A DNA stretch of 64,000 nt, taken from positions 60,844,866 to 60,908,865 of the forward strand of contig CM037871.1 of assembly GCA_021292105.1 (NCBI GenBank). Direction: 5' to 3'. The stretch comes from Anadara kagoshimensis. Lineage: Eukaryota > Mollusca > Bivalvia > Arcoida > Arcidae. The notes beneath the pieces are model-generated. The model had not been told where the DNA came from, searched no databases, and saw nothing but the letters and a program-made list of their open reading frames with translations. A program made the position numbers and the translations under genes. Positions 34,001 through 62,130 of this stretch are shown here, in pieces. Within the stretch, counting starts at the first letter, position 1. Each line of letters begins with the position of its first letter.

Positions 34001-37000
34001 GGCATGTATATTAGAATATTGTAGGCATTTGCCTTACGGTCATTTCCATATATGAACGAAGGTCATAGGTTCAAAGGTCAAGGTCATAGATGCAAACAAA
34101 TACTGAAATGGTGAATTATCTCAAAAATGATAAACTTTCTCTATAGGCATGTATATCAGAATGTTATAGGCATTTACACAATGTTCATTTTGATATATGA
34201 ATGTAGGTCATAGGTCTAATGGTCAAGGTTATAGATGCAAATGAATACTGAAATGATTAATTGTCTTAAAAACTATAAACTTTTTGTATAGGCATATATG
34301 TTAAAATATTGTAGGTATTGGCCTAACGATCATTTTGATATATGAATGAAGGACATGAGTTTAAAAGTCAAGGTCACTGATGCAAACAAATACTGACATG
34401 GTTAATTATCTCAAAAACTATAAACTTTTTGTATAGGCTTCTAAATTGTAGGTATTGACCTAATATTCATTGCGATATTTAGATTAAGGTCATGGGTTCA
34501 AATTTTTCTTTACCTTTTTAGTTGTTTATAAACAATATATTGTAGCTAGATTTCAGATATATTATATGTAGCACTCTTATGACTAGTTATGTTATAATAA
34601 ATTTGCAAAAAATCCTTACATATAATTGGCCCTTACTGCTGAAAATTTATTTGGACATTCTCTTTAATTAATGTCAATGACCATTGAACCTCTGCATGAG
34701 ATATGTACTCAGCTGCATGTGAGCATTAAGGCTCATGGACCTCTTGTTTAATATTAGGGTCTCCATGACGATGGAAGTAACTTTGACCATCCTTGATGGT
34801 TCCATACATGCATTTATTCGGATTGAACTATTTCCTACATGAATCCTTAATATTGGTCCAATGTGTGAATATTAAAACAGCCCCATGCTCATAGTCTGCA
34901 CATTGCACACTACATGAACCCGCTATGTTGTGTTGGGAGCAATGCAAGGTGAACATAACAACCTCCTTTCAGTTACCTGACAACTTCATATACCTGACAC
35001 TACATTGATGGAGACACTGAACTCCCTGTCTTTCTAATCTTTCGCGAATTTTAGTACTTTCAGTACTTTGATTAAATTCAAGGACTCTTAGCTTAGAAAA
35101 AAATTTTGACTGGGGCACAAAACACCATTCAAAAAAATATAATAATATATAATAATAATAATAATAACAATATCTTTAAAGTATTGGCTAATCATTAATA
35201 CAATCTAAGGGAGATAACTCCAACTTATATAAATGATATAAATGATTACGATGATTAGATATATATTATATATAAACTTGAATGATGTCCTGTTATGTTA
35301 TATATTTTAGTGGTTCAGGGTTACAAGGCATGCATTTTTTGGTGGAATCATCAACCTTCTGTGGCTTTTTGGACTGACATTATGTGGCCCATTGAGGTAA
35401 GGCAAAGTCAGTGTATTTTCCCTTTTTATAAGCTCTATTGATAACTTATTGGGATTGTTCTAGTTGTGTGTGGTATTGTTAGTATATCAGTATGGTTTTC
35501 TCAGGTGATACATACCTTGGTACTAACTAAGTATGTCAGTTTTATGGTATTTTGAAATTTTGTGAAAAAAAAAAGAAAACTTATTCATATATGTTGAAGC
35601 AATTTTGATGAAGTGGTCATAGCACAAATCTAACATGAAGTACTTTTGTTTCTTATACAATGTTCAGTCAAATATGAAAATCCAAAACAATTATAACAAT
35701 GCCATTTCTTATATACTGAAACATTCAAGAGATACATAACATGGCATTGAAATTACAATGATACAGAACATGAACTGTCGGTCGGTTATCTGGCCAGTAT
35801 AAATGCTGTAAGACCAAACTTACGTATTCATTCTCCAGATTCCACAATATTAGTGATGTTGGCATGTCAAAATGATGTGCAATAAAATCAAAATATAAAA
35901 CAAAACTCGATCCTTGTAGTAACTGTAGAAGCCATACAAGACATCCATAGAATTCTTGATATTATATTACTGTAATGAACCTTGATGATAGATTTATATG
36001 TTCTTCTTGTAGGACCATACTGTTATTTGAGCACAGTGATCTGGTGATTATAGCAGGAGCAAGTGCCTTGTTTAGTATCAGTGGTGGACCAGCAAAGGTT
36101 AGTTATCATCATCACCTTCTCCTCCTCTCCCCCTCCTCCTTTATAGCAGAAGCAAGTGCCTTGTTTAGTATCAGTGGTGGACCAGCAAAGGTTAGTTATC
36201 ATCATCACCCTTCTCTTCCTCTCCCCCTCCTCCTTCCCCCTCCTCCTTTATAGCAAGAGCAAGTGCCTTGTTTAGTATCAGTGGTGGACCAGCAAAGGTT
36301 AGTTATCATCATCACCCTTCTCCTCCTTCCCCCCTCCTCCTTCCCCCTCCTCCTTCCCCCTCCTCCTTTATAGCAAGAGTAAGTGCCTTGTTTAGTATCA
36401 GTGGTGGACCAGCAAAGGTAGTTATCATCATCACCCTTCTCTTCCTCTCCCCCTCCTCCTTCCCCCTCCTCCTTTATAGCAAGAGCAAGTGCCTTGTTTA
36501 GTATCAGTGGTGGACCAGCAAAGGTTAGTTATCATCATCACCCTTCTCCTCCTTCCCCTCCTCCCTCCTCCTTTATAGCAAGAGTAAGTGCCTTGTTTAG
36601 TATCAGTGGTGGACCAGCAAAGGTTAGTTATCATCATCACCCTTCTCCTCCTTCCCCCTCCTCCTTCCCCCTCCTCCTTACCCCTTCTCCTTTATAGCAG
36701 GAGTAAGTGCCTTGTTTAGTATCAGTGGTGGACCAGCAAAGGTTAGTTATCATCATCACCCTTCTCCTCCTTACCCCTCCTCCTTTATAGCAGGAGTAAG
36801 TGCCTTGTTTAGTATCAGTGGTGGACCAGCAAAGGTTAGTTATCATCATCACCCTTCTCCTCCTTCCCCCTCCTCCTTCCCCCTCCTCCTTACCCCTTCT
36901 CCTTTATAGCAGGAGCAAGTGCCTTGTTTAGTATCAGTGGTGGACCAGCAAAGGTTAGTTATCATCATCACCCTTCTCTTCCTCTCCCCCTCCTCCTTAC

Positions 37001-40000
37001 CCCTCCTCCTTTATAGCAGGAGTAAGTGCCTTGTTTAGTATCAGTGGTGGACCAGCAAAGGTTAGTTATCATCATCACCCTTCTCTTCCTCTCCCCCTCC
37101 TCCTTCCCCCTCCTCCTTTATAGCAAGAGCAAGTGCCTTGTTTAGTATCAGTGGTGGACCAGCAAAGGTTAGTTATCATCATCACCCTTCTCCTCCTCTC
37201 CCCCTCCTCCTTACCCCTCTCCTTTATAGCAGGAGTAAGTGCCTTGTTTAGTATCAGTGGTGGACCAGCAAAGGTTAGTTATCATCATCACCCTTCTCTT
37301 CCTCTCCCCCTCCTCCTTCTCCCTCCTCCTTTATAGCAAGAGTAAGTGCCTTGTTTAGTATCAGTGGTGGACCAGCAAAGGTTAGTTATCATCATCACCC
37401 TTCTCTTCCTCTCCCCCTCCTCCTTACCCCTCCTCCTTTATAGCAAGAGCAAGTGCCTTGTTTAGTATCAGTGGTGGACCAGCAAAGGTTAGTTATCATC
37501 ATCACCCTTCTCTTCCTCTCCCCCTCCTCCTTACCCCTCCTCCTTTATAGCAGGAGTAAGTGCCTTGTTTAGTATCAGTGGTGGACCAGCAAAGGTTAGT
37601 TATCATCATCACCCTTCTCCTCCTTCCCCCTCCTCCTTCCCCCTCCTCCTTACCACTCCTCCTTTATAGCAAGAGTAAGTGCCTTGTTTAGTATCAGTGG
37701 TGGACCAGCAAAGGTTAGTTATCATCATCACCCTTCTCTTCCTCTCCCCCTCCTCCTTACCCCTCCTCCTTTATAGCAGGAGTAAGTGCCTTGTTTAGTA
37801 TCAGTGGTGGACCAGCAAAGGTTAGTTATCATCATCACCCTTCTCTTCCTCTCCCCCTCCTCCTTCCCCCTCCTCCTTTATAGCAAGAGCAAGTGCCTTG
37901 TTTAGTATCAGTGGTGGACCAGCAAAGGTTAGTTATCATCATCACCCTTCTCCTCCTTCCCCCCTCCTCCTTCCCCCTCCTCCTTACCCCTTCTCCTTTA
38001 TAGCAGGAGTAAGTGCCTTGTTTAGTATCAGTGGTGGACCAGCAAAGGTTAGTTATCATCATCACCCTTCTCTTCCTCTCCCCCTCCTCCTTCCCCTCCT
38101 CCTTTATAGCAGGAGCAAGTGCCTTGTTTAGTATCAGTGGTGGACCAGCAAAGGTTAGTTATCATCATCACCCTTCTCTTCCTCTCCCCCTCCTCCTTCC
38201 CCCTCCTCCTTTATAGCAGGAGTAAGTGCCTTGTTTAGTATCAGTGGTGACCAGCAAAGGTTAGTTATCATCATCACCCTTCTCTTCCTCTCCCCCTCCT
38301 CCTTCCCCCTCCTCCTTTATAGCTGGAGCAAGTGCCTTGTTTAGTATCAGTGGTGGACCAGCAAAGGTTAGTTATCATCATCACCCTTCTCCTCCTTCCC
38401 CCCTCCTCCTTCCCCCTCCTCCTTACCCCTTCTCCTTTATAGCAGGAGTAAGTGCCTTGTTTAGTATCAGTGGTGGACCAGCAAAGGTTAGTTATCATCA
38501 TCACCCTTCTCCTCCTTACCCCTCCTCCTTTATAGCAGGAGTAAGTGCCTTGTTTAGTATCAGTGGTGGACCAGCAAAGGTTAGTTATCATCATCACCCT
38601 TCTCCTCCTTCCCCCCTCCTCCTTCCCCCTCCTCCTTACCCCTTCTCCTTTATAGCAGGAGCAAGTGCCTTGTTTAGTATCAGTGGTGGACCAGCAAAGG
38701 TTAGTTATCATCATCACCCTTCTCTTCCTCTCCCCCTCCTCCTTACCCCTCCTCCTTTATAGCAGGAGTAAGTGCCTTGTTTAGTATCAGTGGTGGACCA
38801 GCAAAGGTTAGTTATCATCATCACCCTTCTCTTCCTCTCCCCCTCCTCCTTCCCCTCCTCCTTTATAGCAAGAGCAAGTGCCTTGTTTAGTATCAGTGGT
38901 GGACCAGCAAAGGTTAGTTATCATCATCACCCTTCTCCTCCTCTCCCCCTCCTCCTTACCCCTCCTCCTTTATAGCAGGAGTAAGTGCCTTGTTTAGTAT
39001 CAGTGGTGGACCAGCAAAGGTTAGTTATCATCATCACCCTTCTCTTCCTCTCCCCCTCCTCCTTACCCCCTCCTTTATAGCAGGAGTAAGTGCCTTGTTT
39101 AGTATCAGTGGTGGACCAGCAAAGGTTAGTTATCATCATCACCCTTCTCCTCCTTCCCCCCCCTCCTTCCCCCTCCTCCTTACCCCTTCTCCTTTTAGCA
39201 GGAGCAAGTGCCTTGTTTAGTATCAGTGGTGGACCAGCAAAGGTTAGTTATCATCATCACCCTTCTCTTCCTCTCCCCCTCCTCCTTACCCCTCCTCCTT
39301 TATAGCAGGAGTAAGTGCCTTGTTTAGTATCAGTGGTGGACCAGCAAAGGTTAGTTATCATCATCACCCTTCTCTTCCTCTCCCCCTCCTCCTTCCCCCT
39401 CCTCCTTTATAGCAAGAGCAAGTGCCTTGTTTTAGTATCAGTGGTGGACCAGCAAAGGTTAGTTATCATCATCACCCTTCTCCTCCTCTCCCCCTCCTCC
39501 TTACCCCTCCTCCTTTATAGCAGGAGTAAGTGCCTTGTTTAGTATCAGTGGTGGACCAGCAAAGGTTAGTTATCATCATCACCCTTCTCTTCCTCTCCCC
39601 CTCCTCCTTCTCCCTCCTCCTTTATAGCAAGAGTAAGTGCCTTGTTTAGTATCAGTGGTGGACCAGCAAAGGTTAGTTATCATCATCACCCTTCTCTTCC
39701 TCTCCCCTCCTCCTTACCCCTCCTCCTTTATAGCAAGAGCAAGTGCCTTGTTTGTATCAGTGGTGGACCAGCAAAGGTTAGTTATCATCATCACCCTTCT
39801 CTTCCTCTCCCCCTCCTTACCCCTCCTCCTTTATAGCAGGAGTAAGTGCCTTGTTTAGTATCAGTGGTGGACCAGCAAAGGTTAGTTATCATCATCACCC
39901 TTCTCCTCCTTCCCCCCTCCTCCTTCCCCCCTCCTTACCCCTCCTCCTTTATAGCAAGAGTAAGTGCCTTGTTTAGTATCAGTGGTGGACCAGCAAAGGT

Positions 40001-43000
40001 TAGTTATCATCATCACCCTTCTCTTCCTCTCCCCCTCCTCCTTACCCCTCCTCCTTTATAGCAGGAGTAAGTGCCTTGTTTAGTATCAGTGGTGGACCAG
40101 CAAAGGTTAGTTATCATCATCACCCTTCTCTTCCTCTCCCCCTCCTCCTTCCCCCTCCTCCTTTATAGCAAGAGCAAGTGCCTTGTTTAGTATCAGTGGT
40201 GGACCAGCAAAGGTTAGTTATCATCATCACCCTTCTCCTCCTTCCCCCTCCTCCTTCCCCTCCTCCTTACCCCTTCTCCTTTATAGCAGGAGTAAGTGCC
40301 TTGTTTAGTATCAGTGGTGGACCAGCAAAGGTTAGTTATCATCATCACCCTTCTCTTCCTCTCCCCCTCCTCCTTCCCCCTCCTCCTTTATAGCAGGAGC
40401 AAGTGCCTTGTTTAGTATCAGTGGTGGACCAGCAAAGGTTAGTTATCATCATCACCCTTCTCTTCCTCTCCCCCTCCTCCTTCCCCCTCCTCCTTTATAG
40501 CTGGAGCAAGTGCCTTGTTTAGTATCAGTGGTGGACCAGCAAAGGTTAGTTATCATCATCACCCTTCTCCTCCTTCCCCCTCCTCCTTCCCCCTCCTCCT
40601 TCCCCTCCTCCTTTATAGCAAGAGTAAGTGCCTTGTTTAGTATCAGTGGTGGACCAGCAAAGGTTAGTTATCATCATCACCCTTCTCTTCCTCTCCCCCT
40701 CCTCCTTCCCCCTCCTCCTTTATAGCAAGAGCAAGTGCCTTGTTTAGTATCAGTGGTGGACCAGCAAAGGTTAGTTATCATCATCACCCTTCTCCTCCTT
40801 CCCCTCCTCCCTCCTCCTTTATAGCAAGAGTAAGTGCCTTGTTTAGTATCAGTGGTGGACCAGCAAAGGTTAGTTATCATCATCACCCTTCTCCTCCTTC
40901 CCCCCTCCTCCTTCCCCTCCTCCTTACCCCTTCTCCTTTATAGCAGGAGTAAGTGCCTTGTTTAGTATCAGTGGTGGACCAGCAAAGGTTAGTTATCATC
41001 ATCACCCTTCTCCTCCTTACCCCTCCTCCTTTATAGCAGGAGTAAGTGCCTTGTTTAGTATCAGTGGTGGACCAGCAAAGGTTAGTTATCATCATCACCC
41101 TTCTCCTCCTTCCCCCCTCCTCCTTCCCCCTCCTCCTTACCCCTTCTCCTTTATAGCAGGAGCAAGTGCCTTGTTTAGTATCAGTGGTGGACCAGCAAAG
41201 GTTAGTTATCATCATCACCCTTCTCTTCCTCTCCCCCTCCTCCTTACCCCTCCTCCTTTATAGCAGGAGTAAGTGCCTTGTTTAGTTCAGTGGTGGACCA
41301 GCAAAGGTTAGTTATCATCATCACCCTTCTCTTCCTCTCCCCCTCCTCCTTCCCCCTCCTCCTTTATAGCAAGAGCAAGTGCCTTGTTTAGTATCAGTGG
41401 TGGACCAGCAAAGGTTAGTTATCATCATCACCCTTCTCCTCCTCTCCCCCTCCTCCTTACCCCTCCTCCTTTATAGCAGGAGTAAGTGCCTTGTTTAGTA
41501 TCAGTGGTGGACCAGCAAAGGTTAGTTATCATCATCACCCTTCTCTTCCTCTCCCCCTCCTCCTTCTCCCTCCTCCTTTATAGCAAGAGTAAGTGCCTTG
41601 TTTAGTATCAGTGGTGGACCAGCAAAGGTTAGTTATCATCATCACCCTTCTCTTCCTCTCCCCCTCCTCCTTACCCCTCCTCCTTTATAGCAAGAGCAAG
41701 TGCCTTGTTTAGTATCAGTGGTGGACCAGCAAAGGTTAGTTATCATCATCACCCTTCTCTTCCTCTCCCCCTCCTCCTTACCCCTCCTCCTTTATAGCAG
41801 GAGTAAGTGCCTTGTTTAGTATCAGTGGTGGACCAGCAAAGGTTAGTTATCATCATCACCCCCTTCTCCTCCTTCCCCCCTCCTCCTTCCCCTCCTCCTT
41901 ACCCCTCCTCCTTTATAGCAAGAGTAAGTGCCTTGTTTAGTATCAGTGGTGGACCAGCAAAGGTTAGTTATCATCATCACCCTTCTCTTCCTCTCCCCCT
42001 CCTCCTTACCCCTCCTCCTTTATAGCAGGAGTAAGTGCCTTGTTTAGTATCAGTGGTGGACCAGCAAAGGTTAGTTATCATCATCACCCTTCTCTTCCTC
42101 TCCCCCTCCTCCTTCCCCTCCTCCTTTATAGCAAGAGCAAGTGCCTTGTTTAGTATCAGTGGTGGACCAGCAAAGGTTAGTTATCATCATCACCCTTCTC
42201 CCCTCTTCCCCCCTCCTCCTTCCCCCTCCTCCTTACCCCTTCTCCTTTATAGCAGGAGTAAGTGCCTTGTTTTAGTATCAGTGGTGGACCAGCAAAGGTT
42301 AGTTATCATCATCACCCTTCTCTTCCTCTCCCCCTCCTCCTTCCCCCTCCTCCTTTATAGCAGGAGCAAGTGCCTTGTTTAGTATCAGTGGTGGACCAGC
42401 AAAGGTTAGTTATCATCATCACCCTTCTCTTCCTCTCCCCCTCCTCCTTCCCCCTCCTCCTTTTAGCAGGAGTAAGTGCCTTGTTTAGTATCAGTGGTGG
42501 ACCAGCAAAGGTTAGTTATCATCATCCCCTTCTCTTCCTCTCCCCTCCTCCTTCCCCCCTCCTCCTTTATAGCTGGAGCAAGTGCCTTGTTTAGTATCAG
42601 TGGTGGACCAGCAAAGGTTAGTTATCATCATCACCCTTCTCTTCCCTCTCCCCCTCCTCCTTACCCCTCCTCCTTTATAGCAGGAGCAAGTGGCCTTGTT
42701 TAGTATCAGTGGTGGACCAGCAAGGTTAGTTTATTTCATCATCACCCTTCTCCTCCTCTCCCCCCCCCTCCTACCCCCTCCTCCTTTATAGCAGGAGTAA
42801 GTGCCTTGTTTAGTATCAGTGGTGGACCAGCAAAGGTTAGTTATCATCATCACCCTTCTCCTCCTTACCCCTCCTCCTTTATAGCAGGAGCAAGTGCCTT
42901 GTTTAGTATCAGTGGTGGACCAGCAAAGGTTAGTTATCATCATCACCCTTCTCCTCCTTACCCCTCCTCTTTTATAGCAGGAGCAAGTGCCTTGTTTAAT

Positions 43001-43433
43001 ATCAGTGGTGGACCAGCAAAGGTTAGTTATCATCATCACCCTTCTCCTCCTTACCCCTCCTCCTTACCCCTCCTCCTGTATAGCAGGACCAAGTGCCTTG
43101 TTATACCCCCCGCTTAAAAAGTGGGGGGTATATAGTGATAGGGGTGTCCGTCCTAACGTCCTTCCGTTACACCTTAGGGTACCTATCTCTTATCTGCAAC
43201 TCCTCCTAAAACCTTCAATGGATTTTCATGAAACTTTCACACAATCTTTGTGATATAATGTAGATGTGCACCTCCTATTTAAAAATTTGATCCGATGGAT
43301 TTTCGGGAGCGGGGGGTATTTTTTGTGAGCTTGTGGCTCACAGTTTTTAGCTCACCTGAGCCAAAGGCTCAAGTGAGCTTTTCTGATAACAATTTGTCTG
43401 TTGTCTGTCGTCGTCGTTGTCGTCGTTGTCGTC

Positions 43434-43475
<42 letters not shown>

Positions 43476-46400
43476 ACGAACCACTGGGCAGATTTCAACG
43501 AGACTTGGTCAGATGCATGTCTTGGTCGGTGCAATTCAAATTTGTTCGTGGTGTTGCCATGGCTACCATAACTAGGTCAAGGTGACCTAGGGGTGCAAAA
43601 ATCTTAAAAAATCTTCTTCTCCGAAAGTATTGATTAGAGAAAAAATCTGATGTGATATTTGGCTTCTCTAGGGTCTTTAGCCTATAGTTTGTTCATTTTG
43701 TGAAATTCGGACAAAAAATAGGTTACGCGTTTTTGCGTTTAATTTGAAAAAATCGTAAAATAGCTTCAAATTGTTATAACTTGACTATTTGGCCAGATAA
43801 TGACATGGGGTTTTCAGTTTTGACATCTTCTTGTTAGTATCTTCAAATTGAGGTCAAGGTCAATTGTGAAGGTCGTGACCTAATTTTTTTTACCTCTGAT
43901 TATAATTATTATCTCGAAAACTATAAACTTTTTGTATAGGCATGTATATTAGAATGTTGTAGGTATTGATACAACAATCATTTTGGTGTATAGAAAAAGG
44001 TCATGGGTTCAAAGGTCAAGGTCACAGATGTAAAACAATACCAAAATGGTTACTTATCTCGAAAACTATAAACTTTTTGTATAGGCATTTATATTAGAAT
44101 GTTGTAGGTATTGATACAACGATCATTTTGATATATAGAAAAAGGTCATGGGTTCAAAGGTCAAGGTCACAGATGCGAAACAATACGGAAATGTTTAATT
44201 ATCTCGAAAACTATAAACTTTTTGTATAGGCATGTATATTAGAATGCTGTAGGTATTGATACAACGATCATTTTGATGTACAGAAAGAGGTCATGGGTTC
44301 AAAGGTCAAGGTCACAGATGCGAAACAATACGGAAATGTTTAATTATCTCGAAAACTATAAACTTTTTGTATAGGCATGTATATTAGAATGTTGTAGGTA
44401 TTGATACAACGATCATTTTGATGTATAGAAAAAGGTCATGGGTTCAAAGGTCAAGGTCACAGATGCGAGACAATACCGAAATGGTTAATTATCTCGAAAA
44501 CTATAAACTTTTTGTATAGGCATGTATATTAGAATGTTGTAGGTATTGATACAACAATCATTTTGATGTATAGAAAAAGGTCATGGGTTCAAAGGTCAAG
44601 GTCACAGATGCGAATCAATACCGAAATGGTTAATTATCTCGAAAACTATAAACTTTTTGTATAGGCATGTATATTAGAATGTTGTAGGTATTGATACAAT
44701 GATCATTTTGACGTATAGAAAAAGGTCATGGGTTCAAAGGTCAAGGTCACAGATGCGAAAACAATACTGAAATGGTTAATTATCTTGAAAACTATAAAAG
44801 TTTTGTATAGGCATGTATATTAGAATGTTGTAGGTATTGATGCAATGATCATTTTGATGTAAAGAAAAAATTCATTGGGGTTTAGTATTTATGTTTTCTT
44901 TAAATCTATCAGCTAGCCATTAGTTATCAGGTGAGCGTATAAGGCCCATGGGCCTCTTGTTCTAGTTTAGTATCAGTGGTGGACCAGCAAAGGTTAGTTA
45001 TCACCATCACCCTCCTCTTCCCTTCTCCTTCCCCTCCTCCTTCCCCTTCCTCCTTCTTCTCCTTCCCCTCTCCTTCTCTTCTTCCCCCTCCTCCTTTATA
45101 GCTGGAGCGAGTGCCTTGTTGAGTATCAGTGGTGGACCAGCAAAGGTTAGTTATCATTGTTGTTGTCATCATTGTCCTGTTCTAAACTTTAATAAATACA
45201 TGTACCATCAAAATAATCATCAGTATCTTCATCATCATCATCATCATCATTATCATCATTGTTATTGATGTAAAAACTGTTCTCAATTTCCATGGGTACA
45301 AGTGTTTTGATGATAAAAAGTTGAAAACTCATTGTATTATAATAATTTCAGACTCATGGTGCTGTATTTTCATTATTGCTGTTATGACATTACTTTTATA
45401 ATGTCAAACTTGTGGTGCTATATTTTTATACCCCCTGCAAACTAGTTTGAGGGGGATATATAGGAATCACCATGTCTGTCTGTCTGTGTAAAAATTTTGT
45501 CCGGGTGTTGGCCAAGGTGTGTCATGACCTTGAACCAAGGTCATATCAGAAAGGTCAAGGTTGTGGGAAAAGTATGTTTGAAAATCATGTCCGGGGCGTA
45601 TCTCACAGCTGCTTTAGATGACTGACATAAAACTTCACATTGTTAATCTTCATGGTCCAAAGATGTGTCATGACCTTGAACCAAGGTTATATTGCATTAA
45701 CCCTTATAGATGATGGGAGCATGAGTATTTGGCTCTCAAGAGACAGTTCTAGATTGTTGCTGTTATAACATTTCTTATATAGTTTCAGACTTGTGTTGTT
45801 GTATTTTTTTATCGTTGTCATTATTAGGTTACTGTTATAATTTCAGACTCGTGGTGCTGTATTTTTATCGTTGCTGTTATTTTTTACTTTTATAATTTCA
45901 GACTCGTGGTGCTGTATTTTTTATCGTTGCTGTTATAACATTACTTTATTTGATCATGATGAGAGACTGGATCACCTATCAGATCATGAACGTATCCTTG
46001 ACATTTATTGCTGGGTCAAATCAGAGGCCAAAATATATGTAGTTAAATTTCCTTTACCATTATAAATTGATCTTTAAGGTAATTTCTTTTACAGAACCAC
46101 TATGGTAGCTCAGTTGGTAGAGTGCTTGCTCCATATGTGAAAGATTGTGGGTTTGAACCCCAGCCAGGGTTTGACCAAGATTTTGAAATAAGTAGTAAAT
46201 GTTCTTTCGCCAAGCAATCAGCATTTAGAAATAAAAGTCACAAGGTCCTTTGGAAGAGACCTTATAAACTAATGCTCCATGTCATGGCAGGCACACATTA
46301 AAAAACCCTCCCTGCACATTGCCCTGCAAAAGTATAAATTTCCTGCTACTTCGAATATAGCTGGTGATATCTCGATATAAATGAAATATTCCTGACTGGG

Positions 46401-49400
46401 ACATGAAACACCATTCAGGTAACCAATCTTAAAACAGATGTCCTTTGTCAAAATAGACATCACACAGAAAAATACTCTTCACTAGCCATTGTTATTACAT
46501 GAATATAAATTTTTGCTACTATGCTTATACATGTTGTATTGAAAATACTCTGGACTAGGATTGAAATGTGACAACTCAGTTCACTATACCTTTGTATATA
46601 TACTCTGTTTCCATGTAGAGAAAATAATCACAGACATAAAAACACAGTTCACTGACACTGCTGTGGAAATGAAATAAAGGTTGACAGTAGTAGTGTACCC
46701 TATGATAAACTCATTGTTTATAATTGTTCACATTTACATTAATTCCATCAGTGCATCAGAATCTGTCTCTCTCCATTCTTTCTTTGAGACACTCTCATAT
46801 TAAATAGATGAACCTTTAAATAAATGAATAAATAACAAATTATTTAATTTCAAATAACTGGACCCATTAGAACATACAATCAAAGAGAGATTAGTAGATT
46901 ACTCCATTTATTGTAAATGCAAAAATTTAGATTTTGCACATTTGAAGACTAATCAATTTCATAGATTTTTGCACCATATATCAGCATGTACATGATTGAT
47001 GTGCTTAATTTCCTTGACAGTTTAATCAGCTTCACATGGTAGTGATAAACATCATACTATATTTACACATCTGTTTTATCATGTTGTTAACTTTATTGGA
47101 TGGTCAGACCACAAGGTAAGTTTGTTCTAATCTCTGATTTTGAATGAGGATAACTTTAATGGATGTAAAACTAAAATTTCTTTATTTGTTATTTCTGGTG
47201 AAGCAGAACACCAAACTACAGTAAAACCTCGCCATTGTTTGTTCTGTTACATTTCATTATAAAGGGGTTTGTTCTGTTACACTTCATTATAAAGGGGTTT
47301 GTTCTGTTACATTTCATTATAAAGGGGTTTGTTCTCTTACACTTCATTATAAAGGGATTTGTTCTGTTACACTTCATTATAAAGGGGTTTGTTCTGTTAC
47401 ACTTCATTATAAAGGGGTTTGTTCTGTTACACTTCATTATAAAGGGGTTTGTTCTGTTACACTTCATTATAAAGGAGTTTGTTCTGTTACATTTCATTAT
47501 AAAGGGGTTTGTTCGGTTACACTTCATTATAAAGGGGTTTGTTCTGTTACACTTCATTATAAAGGGGTTTGTTCTGTTACACTTCATTATAAAGGGGTTT
47601 GTTCTGTTACACTTCATTATAAAGGGGTTTGTTCTGTTACACTTCATTATAAAGGGGTTTGTTCTGTTACACTTCATTATAAAGGGGTTTGTTCTGTTAC
47701 ACTTCATTATAAAAGGGTTGGTTCTGTTACATTTCATTTAAAGGGATTTGTTCTGTTACACTTCATTATAAAGGGGTTGGTTCTGTTACACTTCATTATA
47801 AAGGGGTTTGTTCTGTTACACTTCATTATAAAGGGGTTTGTTCTGTTACACTTCATTAGAAAGGGGTTTGTTCTGTTACACTTCATTATAAAGGGGTTTG
47901 TTCTGTTACACTTCATTATAAAGGGGTTTGTTCTGTTACACTTCATTATAAAGTTATAAAGGGGTTTGTTCTGTTACACTTCATTATAAAGGGGTTTGTT
48001 CTGTTACATTTCATTATAAAGGGGTTTGTTCTGTTACACTTCATTATAAAGGGGTTGGTTCTGTTACACTTCATTATAAAGGGGTTTGTTCTGTTACACT
48101 TCATTATAAAGGGGTTTGTTCTGTTACACTTCATTATAAAGGGGTTTGTTCTATTACACTTCATTAGAAAGGGGTTTGTTCTCATACACTTCATTATAAA
48201 GGGGTTTGTTCTGTTACACTTTATTATAAAGAGGTTTGTTCTGTTACACTTCATTATAAAGGAGTTTGTTCTGTTACACTTCATTAGAAAGGGGTGTGTT
48301 CTGTTACACTTCATTATAAAGGGGTTTGTTCTGTTACACTTCATTAGAAAGGGGTTTGGGGATATACAAAAAACTGAAGAAATAATTGTTTAGACTTCAA
48401 AATACACATGTACTGTGTTGATGTGTTGATAAGAATGATAAGTAATGTGTAAATTTTAAGGAGGGGACATTATAATGAGGCTTTATTGTACTTTTAGCTG
48501 GTGTGTGACACTGTTACTTTATTTATGATTTGACTAAGAATGCATTGATTTGCAACTTTTATTAATGCAAGCCCATTTTGCAGATTATTATTTTAAAATT
48601 TTTGTTGCATTACACATACTGTAATACTGGCACCAGACCAACACATGTCAACTCTAGCATGTCAACAAATGTAAAAAATCACCAAAAACCCTTTAAAATT
48701 GATGCTCAGTGTAATGGAAAATCCTCCATGCACATTGCCCTGATTGTACTGCAAAGTTAAAATTTTCTGTCATTTTACAAATAGCTGGTGATGTCTTGAT
48801 ATAAGTAAAATATTCTTGACCGGGACATAAAAACCCTATTTAATAAATCAATGCACAAAGTAGAATTTTTTATATGTAGCAAAATCAGACCCCAGTTTTA
48901 TGGGGATGTTAGATGCATTATTATATTCACTAATTTAGATAGATACTTATATTTTCATCCCTTTTTTATGTATATTCCATAGGGTGGTGTTGTCCTGTTA
49001 GCTATAACATTGTGTATAAAAGTTGGGTATGACAGTGCCGCTAAGAAGTTATGTGTGGATATCGGTGGTTCTAAGCGACTTCATGCTTTATCAACCATGT
49101 TACAGGGCATACTTCTATGTCCTTGGGCATTTTTTATATATGTTACCAAAGAGGTAGGTGTCTTTTATATAAATTAACAGTAGCCCATGGCTCCAAAAAA
49201 ATGAGTCTGGATCTCTAAATTTTACACATCTTATCTATTTATTATTATCACAACTTCATTTCTGAAGTGGCCTGGACCCCCAACTAAATAGTTAAGCTTC
49301 ATAATTTAAGACATTAAATGCCCATAAGTAAATTGTCAAACATTTATACCTTGTAGTTACTGGTCATTGTAGATAGTTCAAGCAACTTTTATTCGCGGCT

Positions 49401-52339
49401 ATTAACTTACTAGATTCTTAAAAATGTCTCAACTATAAACTTTTTTGATATAGACTATAACTGAATATTGGATGTAAAAAATACTGTTTACAGAAATAGG
49501 TTCACTACTATAAATTGTCACAATTATTTTGTCCTCTCAAAACATTTGAAAATTAACTGCACTTGAATAAAATTTGGTTTACAGGAATGAAACATGTATA
49601 AATTTAACATCTTTCAAATGGGAGATTTTAATCTGATTTGGTTTGTGCATATAAAATCTAACAGTTTTAATGACATTTCCTTAAAAAATGAATTTAGTTG
49701 AAATAGAATTTTAGTTCACTTGAGATTTCACTTGAGATTTCACTTGAGATTTGGCTTTCATATATTGCACTTTATATATATGTATAATACATGCATTGTA
49801 TTCTTATCTAAAACATTTCATTTGCATTTGAATAAGTTCTTGTCTACAGTTTTGCTGATTTTGCAGAGATTTTTTTCAAAGTTGTATAATGAAAATGCAC
49901 TTGTTTATTCAGTGTAAATGTGGAAAGAAATAGAATAGTTTACTTTATATAGGATTTAAGACAAAATGTTTACTAGAGTCTATAACATCAGTCTTTGTTG
50001 AAAATCACTTAATTTACATCTCTTTGTTTTTTTCAGACTGAAATAGAATCATGGCTGTATTTATTGTTTTGTTTTTTTTTCAGACTGAAATAGAATCATG
50101 GCTGTATTTATTGTTTTGTTTTTTTTTCAGACTGAGATAGAATCATGGCTTTATTTATTGTTTTGTTTTTTTCAGACTGAGATAGAATCGTGGCTGTATT
50201 TATTGTTTTGTTTTTTTCAGACTGAGATAGAATCATGGCTGTATTTATTGTTTTGTTTTTTTTTTCAGACTGAGATAGAATCATGGCTTTATTTATTGTT
50301 TTGTTTTTTTCAGACTGAGATAGAATCATGGCTGTATTTATTGTTTTGTTTTTTTTTTTCAGACTGAGATAGAATCATGGCTGTATTTATTGTTTTTTTT
50401 TTTTCAGACTGAGATAGAATCATGGCTGTATTTATTGTTTTGTTTTTTTCAGACTGAGATAGAATCATGGCTGTATTTATGTTTTGTTTTTTTTTCAGAC
50501 TGAGATAGAATCGTGGCTGTATTTATTGTTTTGTTTTTTTCAGACTGAGATAGAATCGTGGCTGTATTTATTGTTTTGTTTTTTTCAGACTGAGATAGAA
50601 TCATGGCTGTATTTATTGTTTTGTTTTTTTTTCAGACTGAGATAGAATCGTGGCTGTATTTATTGTTTTGTTTTTTTTCAGACTGAGATAGAATCGTGGC
50701 TGTATTTATTGTTTTGTTTTTTTTTTCAGACTGAGATAGAATCATGGCTGTATTTATTGTTTGTTTTTTTTTTTCAGACTGAGATAGAATCATGGCTTAT
50801 TTATTGTTTTGTTTTTTTCAGACTGAGATAGAATCATGGCTGTATTTATTGTTTTGTTTTTTTTTCAGACTGAGATAGAATCATGGCTGTATTTATTGTT
50901 TTGTTTTTTTTTCAGACTGAGATAGAATCATGGCTTTATTTATTGTTTTGTTTTTTTCAGACTGAGATAGAATCATGGCTGTATTTATTGTTTTGTTTTT
51001 TTTTTCAGACTGAGATAGAATCATGGTTGTATTTATTGTTTTGTTTTTTTTCAGACTGAGATAGAATCATGGCTGTATTTATTGTTTTGTTTTTTTTCAG
51101 ACTGAGATAGAATCATGGCTGTATTTATTGTTTTGTTTTTTTCAGACTGAGATAGAATCATGGCTGTATTTATTGTTTTGTTTTTTTTCAGACTGAGATA
51201 GAATCATGGCTGTATTTATTGTTTTGTTTTTTTTCAGACTGAGATAGAATCATGGCTGTATTTATTGTTTTGTTTTTTTCAGACTGAGATAGAATCATGG
51301 CTGTATTTATTGTTTTGTTTTTTTCAGACTGAGATAGAATCGTGGCTGTATTTATTGTTTTGTTTTTTTCAGACTGAGATAGAATCATGGTTGTATTTAT
51401 TGTTTTTTTTTTTTCAGACTGAGATAGAATCATGGCTGTATTTATTGTTTTGTTTTTTTTCAGACTGAGATAGAATCATGGCTGTATTTATTGTTTTTTT
51501 TTTTCAGACTGAGATAGAATCATGGCTGTATTTATTGTTTTGTTTTTTTTCAGACTGAGATAGAATCATGGCTGTATTTATTGTTTTGTTTTTTTTCAGA
51601 CTGAGATAGAATCGTGGCTGTATTTATTGTTTTGTTTTTTTTCAGACTGAGATAGAATCATGGTTGTATTTATTGTTTTGTTTTTTTTCAGACTGAGATA
51701 GAATCATGGCTGTATTTATTGTTTTGTTTTTTTTCAGACTGAGATAGAATCATGGCTGTATTTATTGTTTTGTTTTTTTTCAGACTGAGATAGAATCGTG
51801 GCTGTATTTATTGTTTTGTTTTTTCAGACTGAGATAGAATCATGGCTGTATTTATTGTTTTGTTTTTTTCAGACTGAGATAGAATCGTGGCTGTATTTAT
51901 TGTTTTGTTTTTTTTCAGACTGAGATAGAATCATGGCTGTATTTATTGTTTTGTTTTTTTCAGACTGAGATAGAATCGTGGCTGTATTTATTGTTTTGTT
52001 TTTTTCAGACTGAGATAGAATCATGGTTGTATTTATTGTTTGTTTTTTTCAGACTGAGATAGAATCATGGCTGTATTTATTGTTTCCATTGTGCCTTGTG
52101 ATATTTTTTATATTTGTGGTGGACTTTTATATAGAAGCAGTTGTTCTCAATCATTTACAACCACCAAAGACGGCTGTATGTGGCACGTATGCCGTGGCTA
52201 TTAGTGCTTTATTTCTGGGTATGACCTGGGATCATCCTCTCATGGCAAAGATTACGACTATGCATAAACTGAAGGAAATAATAACAGAAGATCATGTGTT
52301 ATCTGGGGGCGTGGTCTTTAGTTTAATGACATTTTTACG
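28042..52339 (+). CDS. SLC30A5: Zinc transporter ZnT5, N-terminal half (exons 1-9, runs off the window)
   Basis: ZnT5 is a cation-diffusion-facilitator zinc exporter of the early secretory pathway. It pairs with ZnT6 and supplies zinc to secreted enzymes such as alkaline phosphatase. It has an unusually long N-terminal block of extra membrane helices, and that block is what lies here. Nine exons give about 348 residues; phases agree at all junctions except inside exon 6. Matches to human ZnT5 include KFFRAVGLFLSYDLLK, FLQKPFSSGN, LLWLFGLTLCGPLR, FEHSDLVII, SGGPAKTRGAVFF, GWSDHKGGVVLL, CVDIGGSKRL and EDHVLSGGVV. The zinc-binding CDF domain lies beyond the right edge. Start 28042 is chosen because the length before the first helix fits the family. 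Exons 5, 6 and 9 are followed or preceded by tandem copies of their own splice-site regions. Confidence 0.93.
28426..30010. mobile_element. 1585-bp non-autonomous DNA element with perfect 30-bp inverted ends (SLC30A5 intron 1)
   Basis: The ends are caggtctgggatcagcccg... and its exact complement, identical over 30 bp, with weaker pairing continuing inward. ATCAT flanks both sides (28421-28425, 30011-30015), a 5-bp direct repeat; a 3-bp TCA reading is also possible, so the superfamily is open. The inside has a C run (28848-28862) and an (aat)n run (about 29068-29098) and no transposase. Perfect ends suggest recent insertion. Confidence 0.8.
30016..30770. other. SLC30A5: SLC30A5 intron 1, right part, nothing recognised
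   Basis: AT-rich intron sequence. No family or conserved motif was recognised. Confidence 0.45.
30771..30893 (+). CDS. SLC30A5: SLC30A5 exon 2 (residues 17-58)
   Basis: It encodes IIRYLVLLIGSKFFRAVGLF, then SYDLLKLIPVVLFLFIIKAG, the first two membrane helices. Acceptor TTTTCAG, donor GTAGGT. Confidence 0.92.
31351..31417 (+). CDS. SLC30A5: SLC30A5 exon 3 (residues 58-80)
   Basis: It encodes SSLPLIFLQKPFSSGNRLTK and NQ, matching human FQKPFSSGKTITKHQ; ends in phase 0 before GTAAAA. Confidence 0.93.
32384..32830 (+). pseudogene. Decayed hAT-type transposase fragment (ZNF862/C17orf113-like)
   Basis: The first frame reads MWKFLGASTPKAKQGPAEK and DGRPWLYDTQDGMKCADC, like the TTF/BED-type N-terminus of ZNF862-like proteins. 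In a different frame downstream come LDSVNKHDISESHKQAQAF and ANKSKSAQIIQSLTLA, also typical of that family. The frame is lost near 32580 and nothing of the catalytic core is seen. It lies in SLC30A5 intron 3. The preceding 31418-32380 shows nothing clear apart from an acctgccaaccctcccgat stretch of mollusc-repeat type. Confidence 0.6.
33358..34748 (-). mobile_element. Helitron-like element, family B, minus copy (SLC30A5 intron 3)
   Basis: It starts with the hairpin agctcacctgagccaaaggc, duplicated once over about 72 bp (33358-33430), and has about five ~145-bp core units with gttcaaaggtcaaggtca. It ends ggctcatggacctcttgtt. Structure and ends mirror the copy at 22003-23408. From 34749 to 35310 only AT-rich intron and a SINE-tail-like bit at 35110 are seen. 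Confidence 0.7.
35311..35396 (+). CDS. SLC30A5: SLC30A5 exon 4 (residues 81-109)
   Basis: It encodes WFRVTRHAFFGGIINLLWLF and GLTLCGPL, one membrane helix; 86 nt, phase 2, donor GTAAGG. Confidence 0.94.
36013..36097 (+). CDS. SLC30A5: SLC30A5 exon 5 (residues 109-137), founder of the array
   Basis: It encodes TILLFEHSDLVIIAGASALF and SISGGPAK; 85 nt, phase 0 at the end, donor GTTAGT. The internal bases gattatagcag already look like a 3' splice site, and the 41 nt after them are what was amplified downstream. Confidence 0.94.
36098..43102 (+). repeat. Exon-derived tandem array: ~65 pseudo-exons with splice sites at both ends
   Basis: Units of about 95-125 bp run head to tail. Each has ttagttatcatcatcaccc, a C/T-rich tract of variable length, ttatagcag, 41 nt of exon 5 (gagcaagtgcc ... 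gaccagcaaag) and gttagt. So each unit carries a strong-looking 3' splice site, a 41-nt exon copy and the same donor as exon 5. I counted about 65 complete copies by eye. The exon part is nearly invariant while the pyrimidine tract varies in length. Open frames on both strands come from the repeat and are not genes. Confidence 0.95.
43103..43346 (+). mobile_element. Family C element inserted in an array unit
   Basis: It starts ttataccccccgctt with a hairpin to gtggggggtata and ends near gagcggggggtatt. It interrupts the array unit after gtgccttgtt and is directly followed by a family B element. Confidence 0.6.
43347..44961 (-). mobile_element. Helitron-like element, family B, long minus copy
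   Basis: It starts ttttagctcacctgagcc, has a (gtcgtt)n stretch at about 43400-43440, then about seven ~145-bp units containing ggttcaaaggtcaaggtcac, and ends catgggcctcttgtt. The units here are more alike than in the other two copies, which suggests recent homogenisation. The broken array unit resumes at 44965 with tttagtatcagtgg. Confidence 0.75.
44965..45165 (+). repeat. Right-hand remainder of the exon 5 array
   Basis: The split unit resumes at 44965, and one further unit (41-nt copy at about 45106-45146) follows, with small changes such as gagcgag and ttgagtatc. An (atc)n run lies at about 45225-45260. Confidence 0.85.
45352..45901 (+). repeat. Tandem copies of the exon 6 acceptor region (5 including the exon)
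   Basis: Copies of ataatttcag followed by actcgtggtgctgtattt start at 45352, 45408 (AG lost), 45789, 45847 and 45902 (the exon). Unit length is about 55-60 bp; the second unit is split by a family C element. From 45352 and 45789 the frame closes quickly; from 45847 it stays open to the exon 6 donor. Confidence 0.88.
45430..45756 (+). mobile_element. Family C element inside the exon 6 acceptor array
   Basis: It starts ataccccctgcaaactag with a hairpin to gtttgagggggatat, followed by a gtctgtctgtctg stretch. The array sequence resumes with ttgctgttataac. Confidence 0.6.
45902..45991 (+). CDS. SLC30A5: SLC30A5 exon 6 (residues 138-168), one base short of frame
   Basis: From the last acceptor the exon reads TRGAVFFIVAVITLL and then loses frame; one base further on, FDHDERLDHLSDHE follows, as in the family. 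The exon is 90 nt where 91 are needed to meet exon 7. The missing base lies in acattactttatttgat, at about 45950. A duplicated acceptor at 45846 would instead give 145 nt in open frame. The donor, cGTATCC, is weak. Confidence 0.75.
46097..46417 (+). mobile_element. tRNA-derived SINE-like element (SLC30A5 intron 6)
   Basis: The head reads ggtagctcagttggtagag (box A) and gggtttgaaccccag (box B); the anticodon arm does not fold properly, so it is not a working tRNA. The tail, tgatatctcgatataaatg ... gggacatgaaacaccatt, recurs at 48640-48840. The rest of this intron (46418-47029) shows nothing clear. Confidence 0.65.
47030..47115 (+). CDS. SLC30A5: SLC30A5 exon 7 (residues 168-196)
   Basis: It encodes SHGSDKHHTIFTHLFYHVVN and FIGWSDHK, matching human HMLYTAIAFLGVADHK. 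The acceptor is TTTAATCAG; the closer TTGACAG ten bases upstream would bring in a stop. Confidence 0.88.
47219..48488. mobile_element. pogo-like MITE hosting a minisatellite (SLC30A5 intron 7)
   Basis: The left end cagtaaaacctcgcc and right end gaggctttattg are inverted relatives, each flanked by TA (47217-47218, 48489-48490). CAGTAAAACCTC ends are like pogo/Tigger elements. Almost the whole inside is the 30-bp minisatellite. Confidence 0.6.
47236..48357. repeat. 30-bp minisatellite, ~37 copies
   Basis: The unit is ggggtttgttctgttac plus acttcattataaa, with few differences. The 30-bp length keeps a frame open on both strands, giving repeated ten-residue peptides with no sign of a gene. The unit resembles the right end of the surrounding MITE. 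Confidence 0.95.
48640..48840 (+). mobile_element. Decayed SINE-like tail
   Basis: tccatgcacattgccctg and agctggtgatgtcttgatat match the body and tail of the SINE at 46097-46417. The tRNA head is missing. Confidence 0.5.
48983..49153 (+). CDS. SLC30A5: SLC30A5 exon 8 (residues 197-253)
   Basis: It encodes GGVVLLAITLCIKVGYDSAA, LCVDIGGSKRLHALSTM and LLCPWAFFIYVTKE; 57 codons, phase 0 at both ends, donor GTAGGT. Confidence 0.95.
49154..50026. other. SLC30A5: SLC30A5 intron 8, left part, nothing recognised
   Basis: AT-rich intron sequence with a small triplication, cacttgagattt, at about 49717-49752. Confidence 0.5.
50037..52052 (+). repeat. Tandem array of the exon 9 acceptor: 44 extra copies
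   Basis: Each ~46-bp unit is the first 30 nt of exon 9 (actgagatagaatcatgg ... tttattg), then ttttg, a run of 7-12 T and cag. I counted 45 cag-actga junctions by eye including the true exon at 52053. Variation is mostly in T-run length and a few substitutions (atcatgg/atcgtgg). Units of 45 bp keep frame and others shift it, so translated repeats of TEIESWLYLLFCFFQ appear only in patches. Confidence 0.95.
52053..52339 (+). CDS. SLC30A5: SLC30A5 exon 9 (residues 254-349)
   Basis: It encodes TEIESWLYLLFPLCLVIFFI through EDHVLSGGVVFSLMTFLR; 287 nt, phase 2, donor GTGAGT. Only this last of 45 acceptors continues into the full exon. Confidence 0.94.
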
Positions 52340-52679: not shown

Positions 52680-55600
52680 AGTAATTGTATTAATTACGTC
52701 ATATGTCGGTCACATGCTGGATGGCAATATTGTGGTATGATAATACTTTTAGTGTGATGTCATTGATTGTATTAATTACGTTATATGTCTGTCACATGCT
52801 GGATGGCAATATTGTGGTATGATAATACTTTTAGTGTGATGTCATTGATTGTATTAATTACGTCATATGTCGGTCACATGCTGGATGGCAATATTGGTAT
52901 GATAATACTTTTAGTGTGATGTCATTGATTGTATTAATTACGTCATATATCGGTCACACTGGATGGCAATATTGTGGTATGATGATACTTTTAGTGTGAT
53001 GTCATTGATTGTATTAATTACGTCATATGTCGGTCACATGCTGGATGGCAATATTGTGGTATGATAATACTTTTAGTGTGATGTCATTGATTGTATTAAT
53101 TATGTCATATATCGGTCACATGCTGGATGGCAATATTGTGGTATGATAATACTTTTAGTGTGATGTCATTGATTGTATTAATTATGTCATATGTCGGTCA
53201 CACACTGGATGGCAATATTGTGGTATGATAATACTTTTAGTGTGATGTCATTGATTGTATTAATTACGTCATATGTCGGTCACATGCTGGATGGCAATAT
53301 TGTGGTATGATAATACTTTTAGTGTGATGTCATTGATTGTATTAATTACGTCATATTGGTCACACACTGGATGGCAGCAATATTGTGGTATGATAATACT
53401 TTTAGTGTGATGTCATTGATTGTATTAATTACGTCATATGTCGGTCACACACTGGATGGCAGCAATATTGTGGTATGATAATACTTTTAGTGTGATGTCA
53501 TTGATTGTATTAATTACGTCATATGTGGTCACACACTGGATGGCAGCAATATTGTGGTATGATAATACTTTTAGTGTGATGTCATTGATTGTATTAATTA
53601 CGTCATATATCGGTCACATGCTGGATGGCAATATTGTGGTATGATAATACTTTTAGTGTGATGTCATTGATTGTATTAATTACGTCATATGTCGGTCACA
53701 CACTGGATGGCAATATTGTGGTATGATAATACTTTTAGTGTGATGTCATTGATTGTATTAATTACGTCATATGTCTGTCACATGCTGGATGGCAATATTG
53801 TGGTATGATAATACTTTTAGTGTGATGTCATTGATTGTATTAATTACGTCATATGTGGTCACACATGCTGGATGGCAATATTGTGGTATGATAATACTTT
53901 TAGTGTGATGTCATTGATTGTATTAATTACGTCATATGTGGTCACACTGGATGGCAATATTGTGGTATGTAATACTTTTAGTGTGATGTCATTGATTGTA
54001 TTAATTACGTCATATGTCGGTCACATGCTGGATGGCAATATTGTGGTATGATAATACTTTTAGTGTGATGTCATTGATTGTATTAATTACGTCATATGTG
54101 GTCACATGCTGGATGGCAATATTGTGGTATGATAATACTTTTAGTGTGATGTCATTGATTGTATTAATTACGTCATATGTCGGTCACATGCTGGATGGCA
54201 ATATTGTGGTATGATAATACTTTTAGTGTGATGTCATTGATTGTATTAATTACGTCATATGTCGGTCACACACTGGATGGCAATATTGTGGTATGATAAT
54301 ACATTTAGTGTGATGTCATTGATTGTATTAATTACGTCATATGTCGGTCACACACTAGATGGCAATATTGTGGTATGATAATACTTTTAGTGTGATGTCA
54401 TTGATTGTATTAATTACGTCATATGTCGGTCACACACTGGATGGCAATATTGTGGTATGATAATACATTTAGTGTGATGTCATTGATTGTATTAATTACG
54501 TCATATGTAGGTCACACACTGGATGGCAATATTGTGGTATGATAATACTTTTAGTGTGATGTCATTGATTGTATTAATTACGTCATATGTCGGTCACACA
54601 CTGGATGGCAATATTGTGGTATGATAATACTTTTAGTGTGATGTCATTGATTGTATTAATTACGTCATATGTAGGTCACACACTGGATGGCAATATTGTG
54701 GTATGATAATACTTTTAGTGTGATGTCATTGATTGTATTAATTACGTCATATGTCGGTCACACACTGGATGGCAATATTGTGGTATGATAATACTTTTAG
54801 TGTGATGTCATTGATTGTATTAATTACGTCATATGTCGGTCACATGCTGGATGTCAATATTGTGGTATGATAATACTTTTAGTGTGATGTCATTGATTGT
54901 ATTAATTACGTCATATGTCGGTCACATGCTGGATGTCAATATTGTGGTATAATAATACTTTTAGTGTGATGTCATTGATTGTATTAATTACGTCATATGT
55001 TGGTCACACACTGGATGTCAATATTGTGGTATGATAATACTTTTAGTGTGATGTCATTGATTGTATTAATTACGTCATATGTCGGTCACACACTGGATGG
55101 CAATATTGTGGTATGATAATACTTTTAGTGTGATGTCATTGATTGTATTAATTACGTCATATGTCGGTCACACACTGGATGGCAGCAATATTGTGGTATG
55201 ATAATACTTTTAGTGTGATGTCATTGATTGTATTAATTACGTCATATGTTGGTCACACACTGGATGGCAGCAATATTGTGGTATGATAATACTTTTAGTG
55301 TGATGTCATTGATTGTATTAATTACGTCATATGTCGGTCACACACTGGATGGCAGCAATATTGTGGTATGATAATACTTTAGTGTGATGTCATTGATTGT
55401 ATTAATTATGTCATATGTTGGTCACATGCTGGATGGCAATATTGTGGTATGATAATACTTTTAGTGTGATGTCATTGATTGTATTAATTACGTCATATGT
55501 CGGTAACACACTGGATGTCAATATTGTGGTATGATAATACTTTTAGTGTGATGTCATTGATTGTATTAATTATGTCATATGTTGGTCACATGCTGGATGG

Positions 55601-61600: not shown

Positions 61601-62130
61601 GCAATATTGTGGTATGATAATACTTTTAGTGTGATGTCATTGATTGTATTAATTACGTCATATGTCGGTCACACACTGGATGGCAATATTGTGGTATGAT
61701 AATACTTTTAGTGTGATGTCATTGATTGTATTAATTACGTCATATGTCGGTCACACACTGGATGGCAATATTGTGGTATGATAATACTTTTAGTGTGATG
61801 TCATTGATTGTATTAATTACGTCATATGTAGGTCACACACTGGATGGCAATATTGTGGTATGATAATACTTTTAGTGTGATGTCATTGATTGTATTAATT
61901 ACGTCATATGTTGGTCACACACTGGATGGCAGCAATATTGTGGTATGATAATACTTTTAGTGTGATGTCATTGATTGTATTAATTACGTCATATGTTGGT
62001 CACACACTGGATGGCAGCAATATTGTGGTATGATAATACTTTTAGTGTGATGTCATTGATTGTATTAATTACGTCATATGTTGGTCACACACTGGATGGC
62101 AGCAATACTGTGGTATGATAATACTTTTAG
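52680..62130 (+). repeat. 82-bp satellite, ~115 copies (SLC30A5 intron 9)
   Basis: The unit runs gtcattgattgtattaatta, cgtcatatgtcggtcacac, actggatggcaatattg, tggtatgataatactttt, agtgtgat. Variants differ at a few fixed positions: gtcgg/gtagg/gttgg/gtctg, cacac/catgc, ggcaat/gtcaat/ggcagcaat, and actttt/acattt. The array begins about 340 bp after the exon 9 donor. No transcript or gene is evident. Confidence 0.97.

Follow-up and report, generated by a model that had tools for sequence, protein, structure and literature searches.

The stretch of DNA analysed here (the window) comprises 64,000 nucleotides (nt) of the bivalve Anadara kagoshimensis (GenBank assembly GCA_021292105.1, contig CM037871.1, positions 60,844,866 to 60,908,865, forward strand), and coordinates are given on the scale of the window. 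The assembly has 1.115 Gb in 36 contigs, and the window lies on the contig designated C15. The gene at this locus is SLC30A5/ZnT5. This had been proposed by an earlier reading made from the letters of the window (the sequence-only reading) and was supported by tblastn, where human ZnT5 matched exon by exon, and by the Cation_efflux family of Pfam (PF01545, E = 1.9e-51) in the downstream part of the gene. The part formed by exons 2 to 6 gave no Pfam family, and no homologue of exons 5 to 8 was found in PDB. Behind exon 5 there is a long tandem array in which the exon end and the adjoining intron start are repeated together. The copy of the locus in the window is called A, and a second copy on the same contig is called B. 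The features of A are listed in Table 1.

Tandem Repeats Finder (TRF) placed the array at 36119-43102, with a period of 107, 64.4 copies and a score of 10704, far above chance. Counted unit by unit, there are 64 complete units up to 43102, each of 93-122 base pairs (bp) from anchor to anchor, and the count of splice signals in A gave 67 donors, including the authentic one, and 65 complete pseudo-exons of 41-45 nt. The approximately 65 tandem pseudo-exons of the sequence-only reading were thus confirmed, with corrections, 64 of them in the main array. Of the interval assigned to the array (36013..45146), about 1.9 kb is inserted DNA. Amplification did take the exon 5 end together with the adjoining intron start as one unit, although the copied exon piece, from TTATAG to AAAG, has 50 nt and not 41. 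Each complete unit thus consists of these 50 nt and of the intron start, and it crosses the exon-intron boundary.

The first 6 nt of the copied exon piece form the acceptor end of each unit, so that exon-internal TTATAG is turned into an acceptor-like site by the pyrimidine tract standing in front of it, as had been suggested. This acceptor end is present as TATAG or TTTAG in all 64 copies of the main array. The bases that follow are not as constant as the claim of ttatagcag in every copy implied: TAGCAG occurs in 38 of the 64 copies (in two of these 38 in the form TTTTAGCAG), TAGCAAG in 23 and TAGCTG in three. Counted from TATAG/ (the slash marks the splice site), the pseudo-exon is 44 nt long in 59 copies, 43 in three and 45 in two; counted from CAG/, it is 3 nt shorter. 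The gttagt donor, also expected everywhere, is found as the exact AAAGGTTAGT in 62 of the 64 copies, and the other two still carry GT after the loss of 1 nt. In addition, GAGTAAGT lies beside the acceptor in 37 of the 64 copies. The lengths of the units mostly differ in steps of 13 bp because of 13-bp subrepeats in the pyrimidine tract.

The B copy is situated 1.35 Mb from A. Colinearity between the two can be followed from the left end of the A stretch that was fetched up to the end of the contig, in blocks of 83-99% identity with large indels between them. No TTAGGG repeats were found at the contig end. At the left edge of the block, the probe used matched a dispersed repeat and was uninformative. 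The flanks, the broken unit and the last unit of the exon 5 array are the same in B, where two complete units stand ahead of the broken one and the whole array has 5 donors and three complete pseudo-exons; intron 5 measures 1468 nt in B versus 9804 nt in A. Twelve exons have the same length in both copies and show 12 differences over 1794 positions, and where the frames match A and B encode the same protein (judged by eye). In B, a single frame stays open from exon 2 up to the terminal stop. Regarding exon lengths, A lacks 1 nt in exon 6 and 2 nt in exon 8 relative to B, while B lacks 3 nt in exon 4 relative to A.

Other genes of this assembly also occur as neighbouring pairs. Among the Myosin_head matches listed, for which 65 of 360 candidates were scored, 22 of 87 form 11 near-identical pairs on the same chromosome. 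Two of these pairs are on C15, at an offset of 1.345 Mb versus 1.350 Mb for SLC30A5. Eight Myosin_head pairs on different chromosomes pass the same criteria, as paralogues would. Near-identical colinear pairs on the same chromosome, 0.15-1.35 Mb apart, recur in both gene families listed (Myosin_head and Mito_carr), which suggests uncollapsed haplotypes.

Most likely, B represents the other haplotype, which was retained in the assembly. If so, the animal is heterozygous, with 65 versus three complete pseudo-exons, and the copy number of the repeat varies between haplotypes (67 versus 5 donors). The alternative, that B is a true segmental duplicate and A a decaying paralogue whose splicing is irrelevant, would account for the presence of both on one contig, 1.35 Mb apart, and for the two frame-breaking indels of A. 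However, the recurrence of such same-chromosome pairs for other genes, the near identity of the exons and of the protein, and the extension of the block up to the contig end argue against it, and we consider it improbable.

Concerning the history of the array, the distances between units fall at lags of 18, 21 and 39 units, and at lag 39 as many as 18 of 25 unit pairs differ by no more than 3 edits. Therefore, blocks of many units were probably duplicated. After collapsing homopolymers there are 23 types of units, whose order is no simple alternation. Of the 64 units, 60 are free of indels in the core, and these 60 have no substitutions at the 22 exon-core and 6 donor positions, so the spread is recent or the array has been homogenised, or both. 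The GAGTAAGT change was not found in the B copy, as read from its sequence. It could be argued that the length of the array, although not its existence, was produced by the assembler, for example by misjoined reads that duplicated blocks. The similarity at lag 39 would agree with this, and noise in the consensus is hinted at by the 1-nt indels of the units and by the two indels that break the frame in exons 6 and 8. Nevertheless, a low-copy version of the same structure exists elsewhere on the contig, at B, the 23 unit types do not follow one another in simple alternation, and the array before exon 8, described below, is long in both copies, with 45 and 66 acceptors. An artefact of this type is thus regarded as unlikely.

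Splice sites were scored with small weight matrices built from the 14 donors and 15 acceptors of SLC30A5 alone, exon 5 included. The expectation that every unit would bring its own 3' and 5' splice sites held unevenly. Of the 66 decoy donors, 65 score the same as the authentic donor of exon 5. In contrast, the decoy acceptors provide the bare AG but stay far under the authentic ones: those at TATAG/ range from -4.3 to 0.3 (median -3.8) and those at CAG/ from -0.6 to 5.2 (median 1.2), versus a median of 11.7 (range -7.4 to 16.1) for the 15 authentic acceptors and a score of 8.2 for that of exon 5. The decoy acceptors are also C-rich, and adjacent units are only 49-109 nt apart (median 63).

The frame analysis confirmed that one included copy shifts the phase. 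When pseudo-exons are included singly through TATAG/, 38 of the 65 contain a stop themselves and another 25 lead to one in exon 6; of the remaining two, one is in frame and open, and the other is out of frame and open over the 120 nt read. Normal protein would thus require skipping, as had been stated, since 63 of the 65 pseudo-exons bring a stop if included singly. The stop itself differs from the one foreseen: a TAG was expected first at a second included copy, but the TAA in GAGTAAGT (37 of 64 copies) usually ends the frame at the first inclusion. Intron 5 of A presents 67 identical or near-identical donors and, after them, five exon-6-like starts, of which one has lost its AG. Only 2 of the 268 pairs between donors and AG-bearing starts (335 pairs with the AG-less start) keep the frame into exon 6: the first donor with the last acceptor, and the second donor with the last acceptor, the latter adding an open extension of 93 nt. 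For B the count is 1 of 20 pairs (25 with the AG-less start). This test was confined to the start of exon 6, and the losses of A further on do not enter it. Consequently, a productive new intron made from the duplicated segment is unlikely on the basis of the sequence.

In each unit, pyrimidine-rich intron DNA is joined to exonic TTATAG, and this provides an acceptor-like AG. The data point to a model in which the array would be transcribed and then removed as intron. C-rich, weak acceptors, a short exon (41-45 nt) and the closeness of neighbouring units would cause the pseudo-exons to be skipped. Exon 5, with a better acceptor of its own, would be defined by that acceptor together with the first donor, and joined to the last exon 6 acceptor. 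Most likely, then, splicing passes over the units and connects the first donor with the last acceptor, which is the outermost pair. Apart from the second-donor variant in A, the outermost pair is also the one that keeps the frame, which fits exon definition and contradicts a pairing by the shortest intron.

Two other fates of the array were weighed against skipping. In the first, the array would be a reservoir of poison exons, included at a low rate and leading to premature stops and mRNA decay, so that its length would tune the output of the allele. The stops brought by 63 of the 65 pseudo-exons, the exact donor in 62 of 64 units and the lack of substitutions in the 60 indel-free cores are compatible with it. 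However, recent block duplication also predicts uniform units, the decoy acceptors are weak and B, with two complete units before the broken one, seemingly shows that no minimum number is required, which leaves this role with a low probability. In the second, the intron would be removed stepwise along the array by recursive splicing, as 37 units place GTAAGT 5 nt after TATAG/ within GAGTAAGT, and this donor scores 7.4, inside the range of the gene's own donors. Nevertheless, acceptor and donor do not adjoin as AG/GT, the nearest arrangement being TATAG/CAGGA/GTAAGT or its CAAGA form, in 37 of 64 units with the two sites 5 nt apart. Moreover, the GTAAGT site is missing from 27 of 64 units and from the whole B copy, and the acceptors are weak; recursive splicing is therefore very improbable.

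Several points weigh against skipping as well. The authentic acceptor of exon 7a scores -7.4, under the decoys, and the authentic donor of exon 6 only -3.1; the matrices rest on one gene and include exon 5 itself. Skipping was deduced from frame and site scores, and the length of the array comes from one assembly. Furthermore, the losses in exons 6 and 8 may mean that A is a broken allele free of splicing constraint, or that its consensus is noisy. Even so, we think it quite probable that the region is a hypervariable minisatellite over the exon 5/intron 5 boundary (a 'mirage'), with the array being spliced out as intron and the pseudo-exons skipped.

The exon 5 donor is not the only amplified boundary of SLC30A5; the sequence-only reading mentioned neither the three acceptor-side arrays described next nor the B copy. 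On the acceptor side of exon 6, A and B each carry four extra exon-6-like starts, one per copy without AG. Exon 8 is preceded by a much longer array of CAG/ACTGA acceptors, which number 45 in A and 66 in B with the authentic one included (about 74 units in B by TRF). An in-frame coding repeat of 15 residues, TEIESWLYLLFCFFQ, was considered for this array and rejected, since the unit spacings are 44-49 nt and the frame drifts. The open frame is kept by 1 of the 45 acceptors in A and by 4 of the 66 in B, counting the authentic one. The exon 11 acceptor (locus L019) is present three times in A, at 68582, 68661 and 68740 on the scale of the window, and once in B; this stretch (68582-68869 on that scale), with a unit of 79 bp, is possibly a young boundary repeat. 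Therefore, both sides of the boundary are multiplied in this gene (donor of exon 5; acceptors of exons 6, 8 and 11), which amounts to 4 of the 15 exons examined in the A copy. Weak self-matches at exons 7a, 9 and 13 and the repeats within the histidine-rich exon 12 were not counted as boundary arrays.

Table 1. Features of the A copy of SLC30A5 and its boundary repeats in the window
Feature	Position	Strand	Basis or remarks
SLC30A5 exon 5, 85 nt	36013..36097	+	acceptor TTGTAG, donor AAAG/GTTAGT; tblastn with human ZnT5, splice sites, frame
Copied part of exon 5, 50 nt (TTATAG + CAG + 41 nt)	36048..36097	+	sequence comparison
Main array: 64 complete units, then left half of the broken unit	36098..43102	+	units made of intron start, C-rich tract, TATAG acceptor, exon copy and GTTAGT donor
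Transposon-like insertion splitting one unit, 1863 bp	43103..44965	.	at this site B carries an insertion of 250 bp; in A more sequence is nested inside
Right half of the broken unit, with a donor at 44993, and last unit, with its exon copy at 45102-45145	44966..45145	+	
Acceptor-side copies before exon 6	45352..45901	+	starts 45352, 45408 (AG lost), 45789 and 45847; unit about 56 bp; another insertion inside
SLC30A5 exon 6, authentic; 1 nt shorter in A than in B	45902..45991	+	frameshift or consensus error
Acceptor-side array before exon 8	50037..52052	+	44 extra CAG/ACTGA acceptors, unit about 45 bp, ahead of the authentic one
SLC30A5 exon 8; its end lacks 2 nt in A relative to B	52053..52339	+	frame and A/B comparison

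Two more arrays lie inside the gene. One of 82 bp, in intron 8 (52684-62130), has about 115 copies in A versus about 19 in B, and another of 30 bp (47237-48358) is repeated about 37 times in A and 33 times in B. Neither was accepted as derived from an exon, as both gave only exon matches of 9-10 nt, at the level of chance.

Other exons were surveyed for comparison. From 218 listed matches (87 Myosin_head and 131 Mito_carr), 28 exons were taken, 20 of Myosin_head and 8 of Mito_carr. The former were picked in table order with an open frame of 150 residues at most, dropping the second members of pairs, and the latter by hand under the same limit. Flanks of 400 nt (20 exons) or 300 nt (8 exons) were searched with TRF and self-BLAST. 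One clear boundary repeat was found among the 28 exons, a degenerate two-copy duplication on the donor side at locus L070. This Mito_carr exon (G000:C18:12275401-12276231) has a degenerate copy of its end and of the adjoining intron about 156 bp off, and the repeat looks old. Several candidates were left out of the count: a two-copy AT-rich 40-bp repeat at L057, which ends 11 nt before the exon match and offers an acceptor-like ACAG but no copy of the exon; self-matches of chance size at L056 and L059; and arrays away from the exon at L046, L063 and L072. The resulting proportions, 4 of 15 exons in SLC30A5 versus 1 of 28 elsewhere, gave a Fisher p of 0.043 with the index array and of 0.100 without it. 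SLC30A5 is richer in boundary repeats than the other exons in these counts, a comparison that is suggestive only, because the gene was picked for its array. A bolder idea is that splice junctions are preferred starting points of tandem amplification in this genome, that the arrays of intron 5 act as opposite decoys and that array length sets the correct mRNA output of an allele. There is little chance that this holds; if true, it would explain the four amplified boundaries in one gene and the several-fold differences in intron length between alleles.

As for a third family, ABC_tran, 15 of its 19 matches fell on contig C22 (18 kb to 717 kb), several of them with TGA read through, and the contig looks bacterial. 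It is presumably of Mollicutes type (code 4), inside the animal assembly.

Mirages are said, from work on Adh, to show both germline and somatic instability of length. Amphioxus mirages are reported not to disturb regular splicing (PMC3087553, PMC3902484). They resemble the present repeats in that the unit crosses the exon-intron boundary, donor and acceptor sides are affected, haplotypes differ and many units retain AG/GT signals. However, the host there is a cephalochordate and here a bivalve, and the numbered duplicates of the BflGb6 mirage run from D1 to D6 (PMC3902484), whereas about 65 units occur here at one boundary and 45-66 at another. Moreover, the donor-side repeat of SLC30A5 yields complete pseudo-exons through the exon-internal TTATAG acceptor, and four boundaries of one gene are involved, with opposed arrays flanking one intron.

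In human IFI6, a minisatellite at the end of an exon likewise multiplies the donor, and the downstream donors are used and give rise to isoforms (PMC4526556), whereas here their predicted use breaks the frame in almost all choices. Intron gain by tandem duplication is similar in that splice signals and pyrimidine tract are copied along and a cryptic site is recruited by its new neighbour, but in the present case an existing boundary is multiplied, and the use of any new intron would be hypothetical. Internal tandem repeats of human segmental duplications are also minisatellites, some of them at exon-intron boundaries and changing gene structure, but on average they have four 30-bp units, and they were compared with transcripts (PMC2812944).

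A minisatellite of this kind in a mollusc was not recognised in the titles and the beginnings of abstracts of the papers listed, which is weak evidence of absence. The findings in A. kagoshimensis suggest that boundary-spanning minisatellites are not peculiar to amphioxus, and the copy number is far above that of the known cases compared. No function has to be assumed for the array to persist. It represents an extreme form of a repeat type already known and a natural experiment, and any function is only putative. As such, it could show how cells choose the correct splice site among many look-alikes. Exon definition predicts the use of the first donor with the last acceptor (9.8 kb) and shortest-intron pairing that of the last donor with the first acceptor (about 0.2 kb), and since both rules point to opposite ends of intron 5, a heterozygous animal could tell them apart, with the short allele as a built-in control.

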